From: Desulfolutivibrio sulfodismutans DSM 3696
GTDB taxonomy: Bacteria > Desulfobacterota > Desulfovibrionia > Desulfovibrionales > Desulfovibrionaceae
Reading direction: 5' to 3'
DNA length: 64,000 nucleotides
NCBI RefSeq assembly: GCF_013376455.1
Contig: NZ_CP045504.1
Coordinates: forward strand, 2,749,001-2,813,000
Shown: positions 5,346 through 16,652 of the stretch, one piece after another
Numbering within the stretch: position 1 is the first letter of the stretch
How the letters are laid out: each line of letters starts with the position of its first letter
Program-made: the position numbers and the translations under genes
Notes under the pieces: model-generated
Told to the model about the DNA's origin: nothing
The model's database searches: none
Seen by the model: only the letters and a program-made list of their open reading frames with translations

Positions 5346-6710
5346 TCAGGACAGGCTCTCCAGAAGCTTCTTGGCGGGCTCGTAGCCCGGGTCCAGCTCC
5401 AGGGCCATGCCCAGGTATGTTTTGGCCTCCACGGGCTTTCTGACCCGGTGCAGGGCCATGGCGATGTTGTATCCCACCGATGGCGCCTGAAGCACGATGG
5501 TCCCGTCGGCATTGAGGGCCTTCTGGAACGAATCCCAGGCCTTGTCATAGGCCCGGCCATCGGCGTAAGCCACCCCGATGTTGTAAAACAGCCCGGCGTC
5601 GTTCGGGGCCAGGCTCAAGGCCTTGGTGTAGTTGTCCACGGCCTCGCTCCATTTCCCCTGCTTGCGCAGCACAATACCCCGGTTGTTGAACATCCACAGG
5701 TCGTCGCGGGTCAACTCCAGGCCCTTGGCCTCGATGGCCTCGGTCATGTAGGCCAGGGCCAGCTCCTCGTCCTTCTCGCCGATCTTGCGGGCGATCTCCA
5801 TGAGCGACTCGCTGACCATGTCCGCCGCCACCCTGCCCACCACCTTTTTGGCCTGCTCGAAATAGTCCCGGGCCTTATCGGCCTCGTCGCGGGAAAGATA
5901 GGTTTCCCCGATCTCCACCTTGCGCTCGAAGTTCAGCGGCGAGAGGGCGTCGAGCTTGTTTAAAAAAAACAGCTTCTTGTCCGTGTCGCCGGTCTGCGAA
6001 TTCAGGTCCACGAGCTTTTTTAAGGGCTCGATGAAGAGTTTCTCGCTCTTGTAGGCCTTGAGGTAATGGACCTCGGCCTCCTTGTGGTTGCCCCGGCGCA
6101 ACTCCAGGTCGCCCATGAGCAGATGCCCCTTGAGGCTGTCCGGCTTGATCTCGAAGATGCGCGCCGCCAGGGCCTCGGCGTCGGCCAGCTCCCCGCTCTC
6201 CAGGAGGGCGGCGCACCGGTCCATGAGCACCCCGAGCTGGGTGTTGGGGCGGATGGCGAAGGCCGCCTTCTCGATGATGGCGTTGGCCGAGATGGGTTTG
6301 GTGATGAAGCTGTCCGCGCCCACCTCGTGGGCCAGGATGATCTCTTCCCGGGAGGTCTCGCTGCTGACCACGATGATCTTGGTCTTGTCGGCATAAAAGT
6401 TTTTGAGCACCTTGACGGTCTTGATGCAGGACGCCTTGTGCATGCGGCGTTCCAGGAAGACGATCAGCGGCGCCGTGGCCTTCTCGGCCAGCTTCCCGGC
6501 CAGGGTGACCACATCGTCGTATTCCTGGACTTCCCGGCAAACACTGCGGACATCCTGCTTGAGCTGGGAAATGGTGAACCGCAGCGCCTTGACGAAGGCC
6601 TCGTCGTCACTGCACACCAACACCACTCCGCCCTCGTTGAAGTAGTCCAGAACGATCTTCTCGTATCTTTTGGCACTCTGATCGGTCTTTAAACGCATAA
6701 CGGCGTCCAT
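5346..6710 (-). CDS. Receiver-like domain fused to TPR repeats (phospho-Asp replaced by Glu)
   Basis: A 454-residue protein whose first 150 residues have a receiver (CheY-like) fold signature: an acidic pair (D35, D36), a Ser/Thr position in VVSS (116-117) and the conserved Lys in ITKPIS (138). The strand that should carry the phosphorylatable Asp reads LIVFLERRM, with Glu at about 87, so ordinary phosphorylation is unlikely. The rest (about 155-454) is a series of TPR repeats, for example GHLLMGDLELRRGNHKEAEV and FYNIGVAYADGRAYDKAWDS, which usually bind proteins. It is the last gene of a leftward signalling cluster with two response regulators and a kinase (6759-11778). It probably acts as a scaffold or adaptor; that role is inferred. 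Confidence 0.85.
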   Translation of the reverse strand: MDAVMRLKTDQSAKRYEKIVLDYFNEGGVVLVCSDDEAFVKALRFTISQLKQDVRSVCREVQEYDDVVTLAGKLAEKATAPLIVFLERRMHKASCIKTVKVLKNFYADKTKIIVVSSETSREEIILAHEVGADSFITKPISANAIIEKAAFAIRPNTQLGVLMDRCAALLESGELADAEALAARIFEIKPDSLKGHLLMGDLELRRGNHKEAEVHYLKAYKSEKLFIEPLKKLVDLNSQTGDTDKKLFFLNKLDALSPLNFERKVEIGETYLSRDEADKARDYFEQAKKVVGRVAADMVSESLMEIARKIGEKDEELALAYMTEAIEAKGLELTRDDLWMFNNRGIVLRKQGKWSEAVDNYTKALSLAPNDAGLFYNIGVAYADGRAYDKAWDSFQKALNADGTIVLQAPSVGYNIAMALHRVRKPVEAKTYLGMALELDPGYEPAKKLLESLS

Positions 6711-6758: not shown

Positions 6759-7976
6759 TCAATCCTCGGCAGCACGGCGTTCCCGCCGCAACAGCTCCAT
6801 CAGTTCCGGTTCCAGCCTGAAAAGCGTGCTTTCGGTCTCGGGCGAGACATACACCGGCACGGTCTCGGGAAGGCCCTCCCCGGCCTGGGCGATCCTGGCG
6901 GCCAGCGCCTGGTCCACGGCGGTTCCGGCCGCCGCCGCCAGTTCCCCGCCAATGCGCAGGTCCTCGGCCAGGACCATGCCCGGCACGACCTCCCCGGGCG
7001 GTACCGCGCCGCGGGTGAAGCCTTCCCGGGCCTGGGCCAGGGTGGCGAAGGCCTCGAAAATACGGGGGTCGTACCAGCCCGTGCGCCCGCGCATGGCGAA
7101 AAGGGCCTGGGCCTTGGTGCGGCCCGAAGAGATCAGCGTATCGTAATCCAGGGCCACCTTCAAAAGCCTGGCCCCCAGGGGGATGTCCTGGCCGCTCGGG
7201 CCGCCCGGGGGAGGCCCCGAGCCGTCATAGCGTTTTTCCTGATGGCGGATGACCCCGGCCACCTCCTCGAGGCGGGGAATGTTCATCAAAAGGTCTCCGG
7301 CGATCCTCGGGTGCTGGTCGAAAAGCCGTTGCCTGCGCGGGTCGAGCTCCCCGGTCTGCAGCATGTCCGAGAGCATCCGCTCGGGCAGGGCGGCGCAGCC
7401 GATCTGGGACAACATGACCGCCAGCTCCAGCCGCCAGGGCTCCGGGACGCCAAGATATCCGGCCACATCCAGGACGATGCGCTTGACCCGCACGGATCGT
7501 CCATGGGCCTTGGCGTTGAGCAGGGCCAGAAGATCGGTGAGCACCTTGATGGTGCCGCGCAGCGTCCCTTTGAGAAACGTCCGCTCCGCCGTAACCAACC
7601 CGTACTGCTCGATGGCGGCGGCCAGGGCGGCGTCAAGCTCCTCCTCGGCGCAGGGCTTGGCCAGAAAGCGGAAGACGTGGCCGGTGTTCACGGCGTCCAT
7701 GGCCGAACGGATGTCGGCGTAGCCGGTGAGCATGATCCGTACCGTGTCGGGGCAGGTCTTGCGCAGCCGGGAGAAAAACTCCACCCCGTCCATGCCCGGC
7801 ATGCGCAGATCCGACACCACCACGGCATAGGGCCCGTTTTCGGCCACGGCCTCCAGGCCCCGCACCGGCCCAAGGGCCATGTCCAGGTCGTATTTTTTGC
7901 GCAGAGCCCGGCCATAGGAGGCCAGCGTTTCGGGGTCGTCGTCGACGAATAAAATCCTGCGTCCGCTGGGGGCCAC
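6759..7976 (-). CDS. Response regulator with degenerate HD-GYP domain (copy 1)
   Basis: A 405-residue protein: receiver domain (phospho-Asp about 56 in VVVSDLRMPGMDG, Lys in LAKPC), then a helical domain laid out like HD-GYP phosphodiesterases. The HD pair that should read LHDIGK is LSQIGCAALP, and the GYP segment is RHQEKRYDGSGPPPGG, so several metal ligands are missing and c-di-GMP hydrolysis is doubtful. The GTG at 7976 is chosen as start: AAGGAG lies 5 bases upstream, and the resulting length matches the paralogue at 10582-11778. The open frame continues upstream into the kinase gene, but that part is low-complexity. It lies between a kinase and a receiver-TPR gene in the same operon. Confidence 0.85.
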   Translation of the reverse strand: MAPSGRRILFVDDDPETLASYGRALRKKYDLDMALGPVRGLEAVAENGPYAVVVSDLRMPGMDGVEFFSRLRKTCPDTVRIMLTGYADIRSAMDAVNTGHVFRFLAKPCAEEELDAALAAAIEQYGLVTAERTFLKGTLRGTIKVLTDLLALLNAKAHGRSVRVKRIVLDVAGYLGVPEPWRLELAVMLSQIGCAALPERMLSDMLQTGELDPRRQRLFDQHPRIAGDLLMNIPRLEEVAGVIRHQEKRYDGSGPPPGGPSGQDIPLGARLLKVALDYDTLISSGRTKAQALFAMRGRTGWYDPRIFEAFATLAQAREGFTRGAVPPGEVVPGMVLAEDLRIGGELAAAAGTAVDQALAARIAQAGEGLPETVPVYVSPETESTLFRLEPELMELLRRERRAAED

Positions 7977-8082
7977 ACGCACTCCTTTGTCCCGGCGGGA
8001 ACTCCTTGGCGGCAGGCTCATCCGGTTCGCCGCGCGGCTGGCCGGACGGGCCACGTTGATCACATGGCGGCAGGGGCGGCGG

Positions 8083-9726
8083 TCAGCCGCTCGACCCGCC
8101 GTCTTTGCCTTGCGGGCCGTCGATGGGCAGCCGGACGGTAAACACGGTTCCCTGTCCCGGCGTGGTCTCAAAAAAGATGTCGCCTCCGTGCCGTTCTACC
8201 ACGGCATAGGCTAAAGACAAGCCCTGACCGGTCCCCTTGCCCACAGCCTTCGTGGTAAAAAAGGGATCGAAGACCCGCCCCCGGACCTCCGCAGGGATGC
8301 CCGGCCCGGTGTCGGCCAGGGAAACCGTCACGAACGGGCCCTGGCGGGCCGTCCGGGCGGTGATGCTTCCGAGGATGCCGGTTTTGTCACCGCGCGCCTC
8401 CTCCATGGCCTGGGCCGCGTTCAGGATCAGGTTCAAAAACACCTGCCCGATCTCCTGGGGCAGCCCGCACACCGGCGGCAACTCGGGATCCAGCTCCAGG
8501 ACCAGGCTGGCCGTATCCTTCCATTCGTTGCGGCTGACCAGCAGGGCGTCCTTGACGGCGGCGTTGATGTCGAAAAAGGTCTTTTCCCCGCCGCCGGGAT
8601 GAGAGAACTGGCGCATGGCCCGCACGATGTCCGCCACCTGGCGGATGCCCTTGCGGCTGTTGGCCACGGCGGCTGGAATCTCCGTGGACAGATAGTCCAG
8701 ATCGGCCTCGCATTCGGCCGCCTCCACGGTCTGGCGCAACTCCGGCGGCAGACAGTCGCCGCGTCCCTCCCCGGCCTGGCTCAGGGTGGCGAAGGCCTGC
8801 CGATAGGCCTCCACCAGGCGCAGGAGATCGGCGAAGGCCCCCTCCAGGAACCCGGCGTTGTAGCTTACGTACTGGATGGGGGTGTTGATCTCGTGGGCGA
8901 TGCCCGCAGCCAGGCGGCCGATGGACTGCATCTTGATCTCGTGGCTGGCCATGGCCTCGCGGACCTTGATCCCGGTGATGTCCCGGCCAAGGATGAGCAC
9001 GCCGCGGGATTGGCCGTCGGGCGAGGGCACGGGGTTGGCCGTCAGCCCCAGGAAACGCTCCCGCCCGGCCGTGCGCAGCCGGATCTCGTCCACGCGCACC
9101 GCCTCCCCCGTGCGGCGGCAGGCCTCAATGGCCTCCCGCACGGGCTCCCAGTCCCAGCCGATATCCAGATCGAAAAGCAGGCCCCCCAGTGCCTGGCGTC
9201 CGGAAAGCCCCAGCATCTCCGCTGCGGCCCGATTCCAGCGGGTGACGGCGCCCTCGCCGTCGAGGCTGATCATGATGGAGCCGATGGAGGACAGAAGCAG
9301 CTCGATATCCTGGTTGGCCTGGCGCAACTCACGCTCGGCGGCCTTGCGCACGCTGACGTCCCGGGCGAACAGCAGCACCCCGCCGCGTCCGTCGTCCACC
9401 CCCGGCAGACGCGTGGCCGAAAGCTCCAGATATCGCGTCCCGCCCCCGGAAAGCGGCACGGCCAGCTCCTTCATGCGGCAGGCCCGCCCCGAGAGGACCA
9501 TGTCCGCCGGACACTCCTCGCACGAACAGCCCTTTGCCGACAAAACCTCCCGGCAGGACCGTCCCACGGGATCGCCGACGTCCGCGAACCATCCGGCCAT
9601 GGCCCGGTTCATGCGCAGGACCACCATATCGGAGGAGAGGATGCACAACCCGTCCGGCACGACATCGAAGACCCGGGCCAGGGAGGCGTCGAGTCCGTCG
9701 GCATGGGCGTCTGCGTATCCGGTCAT
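8083..9726 (-). CDS. PAS-domain sensor histidine kinase (cytoplasmic)
   Basis: A 547-residue protein without obvious membrane helices. The first PAS domain (about 15-125) carries a Cys cluster, GCSCEECPAD (about 67-76), that could bind a metal or sense redox. A second PAS domain (about 140-255) ends in ILGRDITGIK. The dimerisation box AGIAHEINTPIQYV has phosphoacceptor His at about 278; a long helical insert precedes the ATPase domain with LILNAAQAMEEA, DTGPGIP and GTGQGLSLAYAVV. This is the HisKA_3/NtrB-like arrangement. Its ATG overlaps the stop of the TPR gene (ATGA at 9723-9726), so translation is probably coupled. It is the likely phosphodonor for the two flanking paralogous regulators. 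Confidence 0.9.
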   Translation of the reverse strand: MTGYADAHADGLDASLARVFDVVPDGLCILSSDMVVLRMNRAMAGWFADVGDPVGRSCREVLSAKGCSCEECPADMVLSGRACRMKELAVPLSGGGTRYLELSATRLPGVDDGRGGVLLFARDVSVRKAAERELRQANQDIELLLSSIGSIMISLDGEGAVTRWNRAAAEMLGLSGRQALGGLLFDLDIGWDWEPVREAIEACRRTGEAVRVDEIRLRTAGRERFLGLTANPVPSPDGQSRGVLILGRDITGIKVREAMASHEIKMQSIGRLAAGIAHEINTPIQYVSYNAGFLEGAFADLLRLVEAYRQAFATLSQAGEGRGDCLPPELRQTVEAAECEADLDYLSTEIPAAVANSRKGIRQVADIVRAMRQFSHPGGGEKTFFDINAAVKDALLVSRNEWKDTASLVLELDPELPPVCGLPQEIGQVFLNLILNAAQAMEEARGDKTGILGSITARTARQGPFVTVSLADTGPGIPAEVRGRVFDPFFTTKAVGKGTGQGLSLAYAVVERHGGDIFFETTPGQGTVFTVRLPIDGPQGKDGGSSG

Positions 9727-10589
9727 GGCGCACGTCCGGACATGTCGGGCTCCTCCAGATCCAGGTCCATGCTCCCGGAGTCCGTGTCCCTCTCGCCAGG
9801 CATGGGCCCGCCACGTTCGAGGACGGCCAGGAAATCCCTGGCCTGTTCGAAGGCCGGGTTGTTCGCCAGGGCCTTTTCCAAAAGCCTTTTGGCCTGCCTA
9901 CCCTGGCCTTTTTCGAAAAACGTCCGGGCGATGTTGTAGAGCAGATGCTCGTCCTCGCGTTTCAGGAGTTTGGCCGCCCGGTTGTAGAATTTCAACGCCT
10001 GGGCGTGCATGCCGTTTTTGCGCAGCCGGATGCCGAATTCGTTGAACAGATGCTTGTGTTCTTCGTCGAAGGCCCCGTCCAGGGTCACCACCCGGCGGAA
10101 AACGATGTCGGCGTTGTCCGTCTCGCCCCGGGCCAGATAGGTCAGCCCCAGGCCGAAGGTGCCCCGGATGTGCTCCTCGTCCAGGCGCAGGGCGTTTTTA
10201 TATTCGAATTCGGCGGAGATGAGTTCCCCGTTGGCCCGGTGGTCGTCGGCCTTTTCCACGCTCTCCTCGACCTGGCGCATGGCCGGGAGCACCTTGTTCA
10301 GGTAGACGTCGGGCTCGGGAAGAAAATCCTTGAGCAAGACGTCCTTGGTGATCCACCGGGACTTGCCCACGGGCACGAAATGCTTGTTGAGCTCACGCAC
10401 GCACAGGGAGCCGTCGGCCTCTTCCTCCACAAAGGCGTAGATGTGCTGCTTGACCTTGCGCTTGGTGGACCCAAACCCGATGATTCCCTTGGTCTGGGTG
10501 GAAAACACCCCCTTGATGGCGTCCGGGGCCGGACGGGACGGCGTTGCGGCGGCATTTTCATCAGGATGGGGCGGCTGGGCGTCAAGCAT
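9723..10589 (-). CDS. TPR-repeat protein of the signalling operon
   Basis: A 288-residue protein. The first 100 or so residues contain KGVFSTQTKGIIGFGSTKRK and a basic/acidic globular part of unknown family; residues about 105-265 form TPR-like helical pairs (FEYKNALRLDEEHIRGTFGL, LYNIARTFFEKGQGRQAKRL). The C terminus is acidic and disordered. It overlaps the upstream regulator gene by 8 bases (10582-10589) and the downstream kinase by 4, so all three are tightly coupled. Similar TPR proteins with this N-terminal segment sit beside response regulators in Desulfovibrio relatives, as far as I recall. The function is probably scaffolding between the kinase and the regulators. Confidence 0.8.
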   Translation of the reverse strand: MLDAQPPHPDENAAATPSRPAPDAIKGVFSTQTKGIIGFGSTKRKVKQHIYAFVEEEADGSLCVRELNKHFVPVGKSRWITKDVLLKDFLPEPDVYLNKVLPAMRQVEESVEKADDHRANGELISAEFEYKNALRLDEEHIRGTFGLGLTYLARGETDNADIVFRRVVTLDGAFDEEHKHLFNEFGIRLRKNGMHAQALKFYNRAAKLLKREDEHLLYNIARTFFEKGQGRQAKRLLEKALANNPAFEQARDFLAVLERGGPMPGERDTDSGSMDLDLEEPDMSGRAP

Positions 10590-11778
10590 CCAAAAGCTCC
10601 GCGAATTCCAGTTTGTCGCGCGGCGGCACGAGAACCCGGACGCTCACGTCCTGTCGGCCCCCAAGGGCCCCCCGCAGCTTTTTAATGGCCATGGCCCCAA
10701 GCTCCTGCCCCTTGCTCAAAAGCACCTCGCCCGAAAGGTCCAGCACCTCCTGATCCAGGAGCATGCCCGGCCTGAGCTGGCTGATGAACAGATGAGCCCG
10801 CTCGAACCCGTCGGGAAAATTGATCATGGACTCCAGGGCGTCGAGCACCGCCGGGTCATACCAACCGCGACGGCCGCGCATGCGTTCCAGGGCTTTTTGG
10901 GCCGGTTCCTCGAATTTTCCCGAGGCCGAGGCCATGCGCTCCAGGGTGTCGAAGTCCAGGGCGGCCTTGAGCAGCCTGGCCCCTTGGGGAATGGCCTCCC
11001 CCTTCACGTCGCCCGGCGGCAGCCCTCCGCCATCAAAGCGTTTTTCCTGGTAGGAGACGATCTCCGCCACCTCCTTGAGACGAGGAATGTTGGCGATGAG
11101 ATCTGCGGCGACCTTGGGATGCATGGCGAACTCGAAGGCGAAATTTCCGGACAGGGGCTGGCCCTGATAGGCCTTGCGCAGGATGTCGCGCGGCAGGGCC
11201 GCGCATCCGATCTGGGAGAGCATGGCTGCCAGTTCCAGCCGCCAGGGATCGGGAAGCCCCATATATTGGGCCAGGTCCATGACCAGCCGCTTCACCCGGG
11301 AGGACTTCCCGAAGGCCTCGGGGTTGACCATGGCCATGAGGTCGGTGAGCAGCCGGATGGTGCCGCGCACGGTGCCGCGCAAGAGCTCCTTTTCCGCCAC
11401 AACCAACTGGTATTGGCGAAACCCGGCCGCAACCGCAGCCTCCAGGGCGTCCTCGGGGCAGGGCTTGGTCAGGAAACTGAACACCTTGCTGGCGTTGACG
11501 GCCGCCACGGCCGCCGTCACGTCGGCGTATCCCGTAAGCATGATCCGCACGGTCTCGGGGCTTTTCTGGCGCACGTTCTCCAAAAAGGCCACCCCGTCCA
11601 TCCCGGGCATGCGCAGGTCCGAAATGATCACCGCGAAACGCATGGTTTCGTCAAGCGCGGCCAATCCCTCGGCAGGCCCTCCCGCAGTCATGACCTCGTA
11701 TTTTTTTCGGAAGATGCGCCGGTAGGAAGCCAGCATTTCCGGGTCATCATCGACAAAAAGGACGCGAGACTTGTCCAT
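10582..11778 (-). CDS. Response regulator with degenerate HD-GYP domain (copy 2)
   Basis: A 398-residue paralogue of the regulator at 6759-7976 and the first gene of the leftward operon. The receiver has phospho-Asp about 54 in IISDLRMPGMDG and Lys in LTKPC. The output domain again has LSQIGCAALP in place of LHDIGK, while the distal motif reads YQEKRFDGGGLPPGD, so the same HD ligands are lost in both copies. The ATG at 11778 is preferred to the frame start at 11802 because GGAGA precedes it by 5 bases and the receiver begins right after it. Conservation of the same substitution in two copies suggests a non-catalytic output, perhaps nucleotide binding or partner docking. Confidence 0.87.
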   Translation of the reverse strand: MDKSRVLFVDDDPEMLASYRRIFRKKYEVMTAGGPAEGLAALDETMRFAVIISDLRMPGMDGVAFLENVRQKSPETVRIMLTGYADVTAAVAAVNASKVFSFLTKPCPEDALEAAVAAGFRQYQLVVAEKELLRGTVRGTIRLLTDLMAMVNPEAFGKSSRVKRLVMDLAQYMGLPDPWRLELAAMLSQIGCAALPRDILRKAYQGQPLSGNFAFEFAMHPKVAADLIANIPRLKEVAEIVSYQEKRFDGGGLPPGDVKGEAIPQGARLLKAALDFDTLERMASASGKFEEPAQKALERMRGRRGWYDPAVLDALESMINFPDGFERAHLFISQLRPGMLLDQEVLDLSGEVLLSKGQELGAMAIKKLRGALGGRQDVSVRVLVPPRDKLEFAELLDA

Positions 11779-12276: not shown

Positions 12277-12963
12277 ATGGACCAGACCACAGGCCACCCG
12301 CCCTCCGTGCAGCGATCCCCCGGCATCCAGGTGGAATTACGGCCGGAGATGCCCGTAGTGCTGCAAATTCCCCGGGACGGGGCCAAGTATTCCAGCAAGA
12401 TCGTCGGGGTTGAGCCCTACAAATATATCATCGCCAAAATGCCCCTGGCCCCCGGCATCCGCTCGATGATTTTTCCCGGCCAGGGGCTCACCCTCAAATC
12501 CGAATGCGACGGAATCATCTACGGGTTCGATACCGAGATTCTCCATGCGATCCTCAGGCCCGCTGCCCTCTTGCTTTTGGCCTATCCCATGAGCACGGAA
12601 AAAATCGAGCTGCGCCGCCACAAACGGCTATCCTGCCTGCTCCCCGTGCGGCTGCAGAATCCCTTTGCCCACACCCTGGCCTTCATGGTGGACATCAGCC
12701 TCGGCGGCTGCCGCCTGGTGGTCGACAAAAACGACACCGGCGGGATACTCAACGTCATGGCCGGGGACGAGGTGACCATCCTCTCCCTGCACGAGGTGTT
12801 CGGCGATGATGGGTTGCGGGCGATCATCGCCAACACCGCGCAAAAAAACCAAAAAGCCTTTTTCGGTGCGGCCTTTACGGGGAATGATCCCGATCACGGA
12901 AGACGGGTTGCAGCCTTCCTCGAACGCATCGCCGCCCTCATCAAGGATCAAAAGGGCGGCTAA
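12277..12963 (+). CDS. PilZ-domain c-di-GMP receptor protein
   Basis: A 228-residue protein with an N-terminal YcgR-like beta domain (about 15-105) and a C-terminal PilZ domain. The c-di-GMP binding motifs are present: R113-xxx-R117 in RRHKR and D139-ISLGG in VDISLGGCR. Such proteins bind c-di-GMP and change partner interactions, often at the flagellar motor or in exopolysaccharide export. ACAGGAG lies just upstream of the ATG. It is the first gene of a run with an HDOD protein and a GGDEF-EAL protein, so receptor and turnover enzyme are probably co-expressed from the promoter near 11916. Confidence 0.9.
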   Translation: MDQTTGHPPSVQRSPGIQVELRPEMPVVLQIPRDGAKYSSKIVGVEPYKYIIAKMPLAPGIRSMIFPGQGLTLKSECDGIIYGFDTEILHAILRPAALLLLAYPMSTEKIELRRHKRLSCLLPVRLQNPFAHTLAFMVDISLGGCRLVVDKNDTGGILNVMAGDEVTILSLHEVFGDDGLRAIIANTAQKNQKAFFGAAFTGNDPDHGRRVAAFLERIAALIKDQKGG

Positions 12964-13026
12964 CCCTGGACGGGACTGGCGCGTTTCGGGCAACATCCGG
13001 CGAACCCGCACGAGGTCTTGTGGCCC

Positions 13027-14277
13027 ATGGGCTTGCTCCATATCGAACATATCAAACCCGGCATGATCCTGGCCGCCGATCTGCGCACCCCCCTGGGACG
13101 GTTTCTTTTGCCCAAGGGGTCGGCCGTGACCGAGGAATGCCTGCGCTCCTGCAAGATGTGGGGGGTGGCGGCGGCCGAGATCGAGGGCGTCACCCGGCTT
13201 CAGGCCGAACGCCAGGCCCTGGCGGCCATCCCCCAGGATACCCTGGCGGAACTGAAAAACCGCACCCGGGACCTGTTTTCCGGATGCGACGCCAGCCATC
13301 CGGCCATGCGCGAACTGGCCCGCCTGCATCTGCAACGCCACGCCATGGCCAGCCTGGACGGCCAGCGGCCTGGCGAGCGCCCCTCGCACCGGCCCCCCGC
13401 CGTGACACGCCACGGACAGCGGCCCGCCGCGCCGCCCTCCATGGCCGATCTCATTCGCAAAGGGGACCAGCTTTTCTCCCTGCCCGCCATTTTCAACAAG
13501 ATCATGGAGGTCATCCGCGACCCCAAAAGCTCGGCCGCGTTCATCGCCGAAACCATCGGCAAGGATCCGAACCTCTCGGCCAAACTGCTCAAGCTGGTCA
13601 ACTCCAGCTATTACAGCTTTCCTGAGCCAGTGGGCAGCCTCAGCCGGGCCGTGATGATCGTGGGCTCCAGCCGTCTGACCAGCATGGCCGTGGGCATCCT
13701 GACCATGACCCTCTTCAGGAAAATCCCCAAACGGCTTATGGATGTGGCCTCCTTTTGGCGCCACGGCCTGGCCTGCGGCGTGGTGGCCCGGCTTATGGCT
13801 GCGCGCCGCAGGGACATTGAGGAGGAGCCGCTTTTCGTGGCCGGCCTTTTGCACGACATGGGCCGCATGCCCTACGCTGCCCAACAGCCCGGGCTCACGG
13901 CCGCAGCCCTGTTCGAGGCCCAGTCCAGAGGCGTCCCATCCTTTGTCGTGGAGTCGGAGATATGGGGATTCGACCATGCCGCCCTCGGCGGGGCCATGCT
14001 GTCCGCCTGGAAATTCCCCGAGCAACTGATCCGGGCCGTGGCCCACCACCACCAGCCCACGGCGGCCAACCCCGGCCTGGAGGCCTCTTTGGTGCATGTG
14101 GCCGACATCATCGCCCACGCCATGGACCACGGCGGCGGCCAGGGATTCCCGGTTCCGCCCCTCGTGGCGGAGGCCTTCACGGCCACGGGGATTTCCCCGG
14201 ACGACCTGTCCTCCATCGTCATCCAGGCCCAAAGCCAGCTTGACGACATCACCCGCATTTTCATCGAGGAACCATGA
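13027..14277 (+). CDS. HDOD-domain signalling protein
   Basis: A 416-residue protein. The N-terminal part (IKPGMILAADLRTPLGRFLL) is the small domain often placed before HD-GYP or HDOD modules. Residues about 150-350 form an HDOD domain: FNKIMEVIRDPKSSAAFIAE, LLKLVNSSYYSFP, and FVAGLLHDMGRMPYA, with a later AHHHQP segment. HDOD proteins are usually non-catalytic regulators in two-component and c-di-GMP pathways. The frame can begin at a TTG at 13018, but the ATG at 13027 is preferred. The stop overlaps the next gene (ATGA), which indicates coupling to the GGDEF-EAL protein. Confidence 0.88.
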   Translation: MGLLHIEHIKPGMILAADLRTPLGRFLLPKGSAVTEECLRSCKMWGVAAAEIEGVTRLQAERQALAAIPQDTLAELKNRTRDLFSGCDASHPAMRELARLHLQRHAMASLDGQRPGERPSHRPPAVTRHGQRPAAPPSMADLIRKGDQLFSLPAIFNKIMEVIRDPKSSAAFIAETIGKDPNLSAKLLKLVNSSYYSFPEPVGSLSRAVMIVGSSRLTSMAVGILTMTLFRKIPKRLMDVASFWRHGLACGVVARLMAARRRDIEEEPLFVAGLLHDMGRMPYAAQQPGLTAAALFEAQSRGVPSFVVESEIWGFDHAALGGAMLSAWKFPEQLIRAVAHHHQPTAANPGLEASLVHVADIIAHAMDHGGGQGFPVPPLVAEAFTATGISPDDLSSIVIQAQSQLDDITRIFIEEP

Positions 14278-16652
14278 CACACGACACGACACGCCCCGAT
14301 CCGGACGACGCAGAGCTTTTGGCCAGGCGTCTGTCGCATCTTGAAGCGGTCTACAACTCCACCCTCGACGCCCTTTCCAAGGCGGCGGCCCTGGGCGATT
14401 TTCACATCGGGCTGACCACCGTGGACTCCCCCGTCCCCATCCTTGAGGAAACCGAGCGCAAGGCCCGGGGGCTCGTGCGCCTGACGGCGGTCGCCTTCCA
14501 TCTGGTGGACGAAGCCACGGGGCAGTTCTACCCGGCCCTGCAATCCCCCCCGCAGGCGGCCGACACCATGGCCGCCCTCATGGACACGCTGGTGGAGGAT
14601 CGTTCCATCGCCTGGTGCCTAAGCCGCAAAAAGCCGGTCATCAAGGCCACCGGCGGCCACCGCCTGATCCTGCATCCCATGGCCACCACGGCCCGCATAC
14701 GGGGGTTTTTCCTGGGGATGCTCGACCAGGAGCCCAGTTCCATCCCCGAAACCACCCTGGCGTTTTTGTCCATCGTCATGCAGTACGCCGCCGGCGCCCT
14801 GGAGAGCTTCGAGCTCTACCGCCTGATCCGGGCCACCAACCGCACCCTGGAGCACAAGGTGGAGGAACTCACGGCCGCCCGGGCCAGCCTGGAGGCCGAG
14901 GTGGCCGAACGCAAGGAGGTGGAACGCAAGCTGGCGCGATCCCGGGACTTCCACCTGACCCTTTTCGAGAGATTCCCGGTCATGATCTGGCGCTGCAGCG
15001 CACTCGGCGAGCACGACTATTTCAACAAAACCTGGCTCACCTTCTTCGGACGCCCCCTTGAGGAGGAACTGGGACGGGGATTTCTCCGCTCCATCCACCC
15101 CGAAGACCTCAAACAGGCCGAGGCCGTCTTTACCGCAGCCTGTACCGACAGGTCGGCCTTCGAGCGGGAATTCCGGATCAAAACCGCCGCCGGGGAATAT
15201 CGGTGGATCTCGGACCACGGACGGCCGTTTTACGACCTTGACGGCGAATTCGGGGGTTACATCGGGGCCGCCAGCGACATCACCGACCGCAAGCGCATGG
15301 AGACGGAACTGCGCTACCAGGCCTTGCACGATCCCCTGACCAACCTGCCCAACCGCAGCCTGCTCATGGACCGCATCAGCCGGGCCCAGGAACGCGCCCA
15401 ACGCCACCCCGAATCCCGGTTCGCCCTGGTGTTCATCGACCTGGACCGGTTCAAGGTCATAAACGACAGCCTGGGGCATCTGGTGGGGGACAAGCTTTTG
15501 GCCTCCTGCGGGGCCCGGCTGGGTGAGGCCGTGCGCGGTCTGGACACCCTGGCCCGGTTCGGCGGCGACGAATTCATCGTGCTTTTGGAGGAGATCGCTT
15601 CCCTGGGCGAGGCCATCAAGATCGTCAAGCGCATCCGGGACCGGCTCAAGTTCCCCTTCGTCATCGAGGACAAGGAACTGTGGGTCACGGCCAGCTTCGG
15701 CATCGTACTCGGCGGGCCGCGCCCCATGCGGGCCGAGGAGCTTCTGCGCAACGCCAACATCGCCATGTACGACGCCAAAAAACTCGGACGCAACCGGTTC
15801 AAGGTCTTCTCGGACAAGATGCTGGCCGCGGCCATGTCCTGGATGAACCTGGAAAACGAACTGCGCACGGGGCTTGTGAACGAGGAGTTCCATCTGCTGT
15901 ATCAGCCCATCGTGGACGCCGTCGATTACCGGCTGCTGGGATTCGAGGCGCTTTTGCGCTGGCGGCATCCGTCCCGGGGGGTGCTCGGCCCCTCGGAATT
16001 CATCCACATCGCCGAGGAGAGCGGCCAGATCGTGGAGATCGGGCATCAGGCCCTGCGCCTGGCCTGCCAGACCATGGCCGCCTGGAGGGAGCAGCTCGCC
16101 CCGGCCAGGGATCTGACCATGTCCGTCAACCTGTCCTGCAAGCAGTTCCGGCAGTCGGACATGGCCGAACGAATCCTGGAGGCGCTCACGGAGTCCGGCC
16201 TGCCGCCCTCCCGGCTCAAGCTCGAAATCACCGAATCGGCCATCATGGAAAACGCCAAAAACGCCCTGACCGTCTTAAACAAGCTCAAGGCCTCCGGCAT
16301 CCTCATCGCCATCGACGATTTCGGCACCGGCTATTCGTCGTTGTCCTATCTCCAGACCTTTCCCGTGGACGTGCTGAAGATCGACCGCATGTTCATCTCC
16401 GGAATCGGCCGCAACAAGGAGGCCAGCGACATCGTGCAGTCCGTGGTGGCCCTGGCCAAGAGCCTGGGGCTGCATGTGGTGGCCGAAGGCGTGGAGGAGG
16501 AGGGCCAGGCGGAGGCCCTCAAGGTTCTGCGCTGCGACAGCATCCAGGGGTTCTATTTCTTTCCGCCCCTGCCCGAGGCCGAGGCGTTGGCCCTGATGCG
16601 CCGCCTGGACGGCGACGCCAGGGGGTTCGCCCGGCTCATCCCTTCCGGATGA
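14274..16652 (+). CDS. PAS-GGDEF-EAL c-di-GMP turnover protein
   Basis: A 792-residue cytoplasmic protein. An N-terminal GAF-like region (about 60-180) is followed by a coiled coil (about 180-222), a PAS domain (about 225-340), a GGDEF domain with intact GGDEF (430-434), and an EAL domain. The inhibitory I-site RGLD (421-424) lies exactly five residues before GGDEF, so product feedback is likely. The EAL domain keeps the EAL triplet (558-560), NLS, EITES, DDFGTGYSS, KID and AEGVE, so phosphodiesterase activity looks possible as well. It could both make and degrade c-di-GMP. Its 3' end overlaps the convergent glycosyltransferase gene by 17 bases. Confidence 0.93.
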   Translation: MTHDTTRPDPDDAELLARRLSHLEAVYNSTLDALSKAAALGDFHIGLTTVDSPVPILEETERKARGLVRLTAVAFHLVDEATGQFYPALQSPPQAADTMAALMDTLVEDRSIAWCLSRKKPVIKATGGHRLILHPMATTARIRGFFLGMLDQEPSSIPETTLAFLSIVMQYAAGALESFELYRLIRATNRTLEHKVEELTAARASLEAEVAERKEVERKLARSRDFHLTLFERFPVMIWRCSALGEHDYFNKTWLTFFGRPLEEELGRGFLRSIHPEDLKQAEAVFTAACTDRSAFEREFRIKTAAGEYRWISDHGRPFYDLDGEFGGYIGAASDITDRKRMETELRYQALHDPLTNLPNRSLLMDRISRAQERAQRHPESRFALVFIDLDRFKVINDSLGHLVGDKLLASCGARLGEAVRGLDTLARFGGDEFIVLLEEIASLGEAIKIVKRIRDRLKFPFVIEDKELWVTASFGIVLGGPRPMRAEELLRNANIAMYDAKKLGRNRFKVFSDKMLAAAMSWMNLENELRTGLVNEEFHLLYQPIVDAVDYRLLGFEALLRWRHPSRGVLGPSEFIHIAEESGQIVEIGHQALRLACQTMAAWREQLAPARDLTMSVNLSCKQFRQSDMAERILEALTESGLPPSRLKLEITESAIMENAKNALTVLNKLKASGILIAIDDFGTGYSSLSYLQTFPVDVLKIDRMFISGIGRNKEASDIVQSVVALAKSLGLHVVAEGVEEEGQAEALKVLRCDSIQGFYFFPPLPEAEALALMRRLDGDARGFARLIPSG

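Follow-up and report, generated by a model that had tools for sequence, protein, structure and literature searches.

What might a response regulator do when its output domain has kept the fold of a cyclic diguanylate (c-di-GMP) phosphodiesterase and lost the residues of the enzyme, and why should one operon carry two such regulators beside a single kinase? This question is raised by a block of five genes in Desulfolutivibrio sulfodismutans DSM 3696, which lies within a 64,000-nucleotide stretch of the 4.44 Mb genome (NZ_CP045504.1, positions 2,749,001 to 2,813,000; hereafter the window, whose own numbering is used unless a contig or locus is named). Here we show that the two regulators, RR1 and RR2, share a degenerate HD-GYP domain in which the HD pair reads SQ, hereafter the dead-HD domain. 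As far as sequence comparison can tell, the dead-HD family is old and was duplicated in one lineage, leaving two regulators beside one kinase. We put at roughly even chances the reading in which a single PAS kinase has RR1 and RR2 as its two outputs, with their HD-GYP domains working as phosphorylation-switched protein-binding modules and not as enzymes.

A degenerate output domain in two paralogous regulators

All five genes lie on the minus strand, and the order of transcription is RR2, TPR protein, PAS kinase, RR1 and REC-TPR protein. The RR2 gene (10582..11778) encodes 398 amino acids, which Pfam and an AlphaFold2 model divide into a receiver, a degenerate HD-GYP domain and a small C-terminal domain. 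It is overlapped by 8 bp by the TPR gene (9723..10589; Pfam TPR, with a conserved N-terminal region), which in turn overlaps by 4 bp the histidine kinase gene (8083..9726), where Pfam finds two PAS domains, DHp and HATPase_c. About 106 bp later comes RR1 (6759..7976), with 405 amino acids and the same three parts by the same two methods; its start at 7976 is inferred, the longest open reading frame (ORF) beginning at 8171. The fifth member, 48 bp after RR1, is the REC-TPR gene (5346..6710), with a Pfam Response_reg match of 40.7 bits and TPR repeats. The first-pass annotation of this DNA, made from the sequence alone, had described two paralogous regulators with degenerate HD-GYP domains that bracket one kinase and one TPR protein. 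The ORFs and Pfam bear out both statements: Response_reg (64.6 bits in RR1, 76.0 in RR2) and HD_5 (124.4 and 122.7) are found in each regulator. The two proteins are 53% identical across 353 residues (E 3e-121), so their resemblance is not a matter of chance. A promoter scan found no sigma-70-like site upstream of RR2, and three terminator-like sites were seen. The receiver of the REC-TPR protein has no phosphorylatable Asp (the place reads FLERRMH), making it a pseudo-receiver that closes the block.

The receivers of RR1 and RR2 carry everything expected of a response regulator, namely the Asp, the acidic pair, the Thr/Ser and the Lys. The predicted phosphorylatable residues are Asp56 of RR1 (7809..7811, minus strand) and Asp54 of RR2 (11617..11619, minus strand), each an invariant column among 35 and 52 aligned rows, respectively. 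The HD-GYP domains have fared otherwise. The motif LSQIGCAALP, noted in the first-pass annotation, is present in both copies; aligned with intact HD-GYP proteins, its LSQIGC part (7395..7412 in RR1 and 11203..11220 in RR2, minus strand) replaces the HD pair together with the Lys after it. The GYP motif is likewise absent, and the alignments put the annotated GPPPG of RR1 (7203..7217, minus strand) and GLPPG of RR2 (11011..11025, minus strand) in its place. The substitutions go beyond these two motifs: the first ligand His is Arg or Lys, the HH pair has become Gln then Glu, and the last Asp is Leu or Ala, which leaves the middle His as the only HD-GYP metal ligand reliably kept.

The fold, in contrast to the ligands, is recognizable. 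Besides the HD_5 matches, an AlphaFold2 model of RR2 (52 rows; predicted local distance difference test score 91.3, predicted template modelling score 0.82) aligns with the HD-GYP structures 9rbz, 3tm8 and 4mcw, and a long helix (109-151) links receiver to HD domain. The RR1 model (35 rows; 89.9 and 0.76 for the same scores) has the corresponding helix at 111-153, and up to the end of the HD part its elements follow one another as they do in RR2. Foldseek with the RR2 model returned receivers at the top (3kcn, probability 1.00), then 9rbz (probability 1.00), with 4mcw among others. The VIA-align comparisons, a list that tests mainly the receiver part of the model, gave Z 24.3 with 3kcn (root-mean-square deviation 1.3, 135 aligned), Z 19.7 with 9rbz (4.6, 195 residues) and Z 19.3 with 3tm8 (2.3, 161 aligned). 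Taken together, models and residues indicate that the HD-GYP fold is retained and its chemistry lost; going by the ligands, this domain cannot act as a metal-dependent phosphodiesterase.

Age of the loss and fate of the c-di-GMP site

The first-pass annotation took the loss shared by the two duplicates as a sign of selection for a non-enzymatic role, so the age of that loss matters. The HD parts were aligned with intact HD-GYP proteins from the same genome and its relatives. The family is represented by 56 rows drawn from the window and from 50 Desulfovibrionales regions that were fetched. They were chosen for scoring better with a dead-HD seed than with intact seeds, which biases the set towards dead members. 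A dead-HD match of some kind was seen in 73 rows, of which 16 had the higher score as intact proteins and served as the intact rows, and one in a wrong frame was dropped; a near relative that keeps HD, in L135, was among those that scored better as intact (70.7 vs 86.4 bits). Because the rows were picked by dead-HD score, their counts describe what the family looks like and not how often the loss occurs. In that sense the picture is uniform: the first ligand His is R in 44/56 rows and K in 6/56, the HD pair has S in 50/56 and Q in 45/56, with H or D in none of the 56, and the Lys that follows is C in 40/56. The HH pair begins with Q in 53/56 and continues with E in 27/56, and the last Asp is L in 41/56 and D in 0/56. 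In the same alignment, the first His, the H and the D are all present in 16/16 intact rows. The family's receivers have been kept, with the Asp and the Lys each in 52/56 rows and the Thr/Ser in 56/56.

This picture was extended by scanning named genomes with patterns in which the HD (SQ) column is free; the best 80 of 164 relatives were used. S and Q each stand in 76/80, the HD pair in 0/80, and one relative has H at the D column; Q at another ligand column, 80/80, is forced by the patterns, which fix it. The middle His is present in 67/80 of these relatives and in 54/56 of the Desulfovibrionales rows. The named relatives, mostly metagenome bins, bear 13 phylum labels, two loci having none; the labels, among them Thermodesulfobacteriota, Nitrospirota, Pseudomonadota, Planctomycetota, Armatimonadota, Bacteroidota and Verrucomicrobiota, are taken from record titles, and 'Deltaproteobacteria bacterium' titles were filed under Myxococcota. 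In a tree made by a quick method from 84 rows, which omit four distant rows and 48 of the named 80, RR1 and RR2 form sister clades (SH-aLRT 88), and each clade (99 and 99) holds the orthologues from two more genomes of the window's genus and one of another genus. RR1 and RR2 thus separated after the domain was already dead, and the loss that they share is inheritance. This phylogeny of the degenerate domain, which the first-pass annotation had itself proposed, places the loss with the ancestor of the whole family; by the tree and the counts from both sets of rows, we reject its origin within the two duplicates. A non-enzymatic role is still the best reading, and what falls away is the argument that had led to it, since the loss predates the duplicates.

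Could the domain still be an enzyme of another kind, hydrolysing some other substrate without the usual metal centre? HD domains are varied, and a survey of D. vulgaris regulators describes weak activity of the HDOD regulator DVU0330 on bis(p-nitrophenyl) phosphate (PMC4114195). With one ligand His retained and the remaining ligands exchanged for conserved residues that are not ligands, however, we regard a residual or altered enzyme as very improbable.

Among solved domains, the nearest one with SQ for HD belongs to DvhD of Desulfovibrio vulgaris (9RBZ, 9RC0), which is described in PMC13090378 as holding no metal, not hydrolysing c-di-GMP and yet binding it with an effective Kd of ~99 nM. If RR1 and RR2 were receptors of the same sort, the dead-HD domain would bind c-di-GMP and the receiver would gate the binding; in favour of this, DvhD shares its fold with the RR2 model, and its chains 9rbz and 9rc0 are among the few PDB matches of the HD part. 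DvhD differs in being a membrane dCache-PAS-HD-GYP receptor with no receiver, and in keeping the GYP Tyr and a PRSYR element that are both absent from the RR1/RR2 family. The c-di-GMP contacts given in that source are Y523, L577, K582, Y621, M646, R650, Y652 and E668; we placed R650, Y652 and R653 on the PRSYR that follows FCAM, and Y621 on GYP, numbering by offset from the printed chain. This R-x-Y-R element is missing in 136/136 family rows, which have a gap at its R, P and Y columns; at the column of the GYP Tyr, Tyr does not occur among the frequent residues, and the place of Y523 is E or D in 42/56 and 66/80 rows. A search by pattern found no R-x-Y-R-like string in the scorable rows (51/56 and 77/80), a weak check because only 3/8 scorable intact controls matched, and the alignment is therefore the main test. 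With the DvhD contact residues missing, the canonical DvhD-type site looks absent from the dead-HD family, though c-di-GMP might conceivably bind elsewhere on the domain, and we consider a gated receptor of this kind quite unlikely.

Dead-HD proteins often bear the title 'HD domain-containing phosphohydrolase' or are included in counts of c-di-GMP phosphodiesterases. When plasmid records were searched with the HD part, all relatives were below 60% identity, and among the 20 listed most were named HD phosphohydrolases. Since the family, which spans record titles from about a dozen phyla, lacks both the metal centre and the known c-di-GMP contacts, it should be removed from such counts.

Both copies are conserved. 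The five-gene block, with its order unchanged, recurs in G001 and G002, which belong to the window's genus, in G027 from a second genus, and in all seven further genomes fetched from that second genus (L266-L272). In total, 11/11 fetched genomes of two genera, three in g1 and eight in g26, carry the block with both regulators; no dead-HD gene was found in the seven regions around the next matches of the TPR gene (L273-L279). The ratio of nonsynonymous to synonymous substitution rates (dN/dS; Nei-Gojobori method, within the window's genus) is 0.17-0.22 for RR1 and 0.15-0.22 for RR2, while the kinase stands at 0.29-0.34 and the TPR gene at 0.33-0.42; by part, it is 0.15-0.18 for the HD domains and 0.08-0.15 for the receivers. 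These ratios indicate purifying selection on both regulators. They also bear on the idea that RR1, RR2 or both have been drifting as remnants since the duplication, for which one could cite RR1: its C-terminal part is relaxed (dN/dS 0.45-0.62), and in g26 (L266-L272) it has no DGxGxP stretch of the old GYP loop. The receiver motifs are kept in those same proteins, and the low dN/dS of the HD parts and receivers, together with the retention of both copies wherever the block occurs, largely refutes drift for the window's genus, leaving it highly unlikely overall. RR1 appears freer than RR2 on some surfaces, yet, with its low dN/dS and the block kept, it is not drifting in the window's genus, where neither regulator behaves as the decaying copy that the first-pass annotation had allowed for.

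One kinase with two HD-type regulators

Outside the block, dead-HD regulators usually keep different company: in most relatives the dead-HD gene comes after a kinase gene and one for a response regulator with an HDOD output. Counting genes as adjacent when gaps are below 300 bp on one strand, and using 79 named loci (1/80 had no whole frame for the dead-HD regulator), a response regulator with an HDOD output (RR-HDOD) adjoins the dead-HD regulator in 59/79 named loci and 24/50 Desulfovibrionales regions, and adjoins an intact receiver-HD-GYP protein in 0/24 control loci, which were hand-picked among the matches and are not a random sample. Within the named set, RR-HDOD adjoins the intact receiver-HD-GYP protein in 5/7 loci that have one, these loci having been found through dead-HD regulators. 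A kinase lies within 2 kb in 54/79 named loci and 30/50 regions, and RR-HDOD and kinase occur together in 46/79 and 19/50. No description of this cassette of kinase, RR-HDOD and dead-HD regulator was found in the open-access literature, subscription papers being mostly outside that scope. The genome of D. sulfodismutans holds such a cassette itself, near 1.847 Mb (L085, contig 1, 1841000-1857000), and its dead-HD regulator (contig 1, 1848812-1849894), the third in the genome with the same dead domain, has the GYP loop deleted.

The window block has no RR-HDOD beside its dead-HD regulators and has, instead, two dead-HD regulators and two TPR proteins; what it shares with the usual cassette is the same dead-HD family and a related kinase. 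The closest paralogue of the block kinase in the genome is the kinase of that cassette (50% identity, 268 bits), the next ones scoring 210 and 110 bits. Its predicted phosphorylation site, read from the sequence, is His278 in AHEINTPIQ (8893..8895, minus strand), which has the E-x-x-T phosphatase pattern; a kinase H-box pattern went unmatched in 35/57 near kinases of the named set, so that pattern missed most kinases. The first PAS domain contains a cysteine cluster (GRSCREVLSAKGCSCEECP, about 9530-9600, minus strand) that may serve to sense redox state or to hold a metal or cluster. Given how prevalent the cassette is, one kinase with two HD-type regulators may be taken as the family plan and the window block as a variant of it, in which an extra dead-HD copy would have taken the place of RR-HDOD. 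Elsewhere, in a bin labelled Bacillota (L204, 4357-6762), two adjacent dead-HD regulators follow a kinase with no RR-HDOD, perhaps an independent instance of the arrangement seen in the window.

How, then, might such a pair work? Because the family is widespread and lost its catalytic residues long ago, the domain probably grips partner proteins and does not cut the messenger. The reading of RR1 and RR2 as two outputs of one kinase, which the first-pass annotation suggested might compete, fits the gene order and the usual family plan. In the proposed mechanism, the kinase would phosphorylate the receivers of both RR1 and RR2, and the signal would travel along the long helix between receiver and HD domain, where it could alter either HD-HD pairing or the hold on a partner, for which the TPR and REC-TPR proteins of the same block are possible candidates. 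With the duplicated dead-HD standing in the place of RR-HDOD, RR1 and RR2 may themselves pair as HDOD and dead-HD proteins do in the usual cassette. A broader proposal, which we offer more tentatively, is that the widespread plan consists of one kinase and two response regulators with dead HD outputs (HDOD and SQ-type HD-GYP) that act on partners without c-di-GMP, and that the window's lineage rebuilt the pair from two dead HD-GYP copies. The survey of D. vulgaris regulators includes an HDOD regulator without c-di-GMP activity (PMC4114195). If kinase, RR-HDOD and dead-HD regulator do cooperate, they would make a common two-output phosphosignalling unit, and the window block would be a natural experiment in which one dead output has been swapped for a copy of the other.

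Several observations weigh against this interpretation. The relaxed C-terminal part of RR1 belongs here, as does the missing DGxGxP in g26, which may reflect relaxed constraint on that surface. The branch that joins RR1 and RR2 as sisters is not strongly supported. An adjacent RR-HDOD is likewise missing from 26/50 Desulfovibrionales regions, and its presumed replacement in the window block is read from its absence there.

Known systems offer two further parallels. The top NCBIfam match of both regulators is NF053512, the family of NosR from Burkholderia pseudomallei, which resembles them in joining a receiver to a degenerate HD-GYP domain beside a histidine kinase; the scores (234.1 bits for RR1, 256.2 for RR2) are both under the curated cut-off of 400. 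As described in PMC12570481, NosK phosphorylates NosR, whose degenerate motifs read HG-GTP, where RR1 and RR2 read SQ. No FIST gene is among the Pfam matches of the block, the genome's only FIST match being at contig 1, 3677579, and the genome's HNOB match also lies elsewhere. Nitric oxide sensing as in the NosP/H-NOX systems was accordingly rejected, neither gene being near the block.

The second parallel is HnoD of Shewanella oneidensis, by description a response regulator with a degenerate HD-GYP domain like RR1 and RR2, from a system in which kinases feed several response regulators; the reviews PMC6335343 and PMC8846402 report that HnoD has no activity and suppresses HnoB by contact. By analogy, RR1 and RR2 could inhibit or tune an active phosphodiesterase encoded elsewhere. 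An intact HD-GYP gene is indeed found in 14/79 named and 7/50 Desulfovibrionales operons with a dead-HD regulator, vs 0/24 control operons with a further intact HD-GYP gene. Most operons of the family have no such enzyme, however, and the window block has neither an intact phosphodiesterase nor an EAL partner or H-NOX protein; a GGDEF-EAL gene lies nearby but is not beside the block in relatives. A role as tuner of an enzyme made elsewhere is therefore unlikely in our view. Within the cassettes L109, L113, L117, L124 and L128 an intact HD-GYP protein is present, an arrangement that recalls HnoD and HnoB.

Genes beside and beyond the block

Divergent from the block, on the plus strand, Pfam identifies a PilZNR+PilZ gene (12277..12963), an HDOD gene with no receiver (13018..14277) and a GAF-PAS-GGDEF-EAL gene (14274..16652). 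The first-pass annotation had noted that the block adjoins a divergent c-di-GMP gene set. The genes are real, and it is the functional link that has weakened: no PilZ, HDOD or GGDEF match lies beside the block in G001, G002 or G027, where the neighbours differ, and in these three block-carrying genomes no relative of the HDOD gene exceeds 41% identity. We therefore reject a place for the divergent genes in the conserved block. Over its first ~45 residues, the HDOD protein is similar to the small C-terminal domain of RR1 and RR2 (match to NF053512 369-405, E 2.5e-4). Just past the window, at 2813259-2814053 of contig 1, there is a kinase-like stretch related to the block kinase and interrupted by one in-frame stop, possibly a broken gene.

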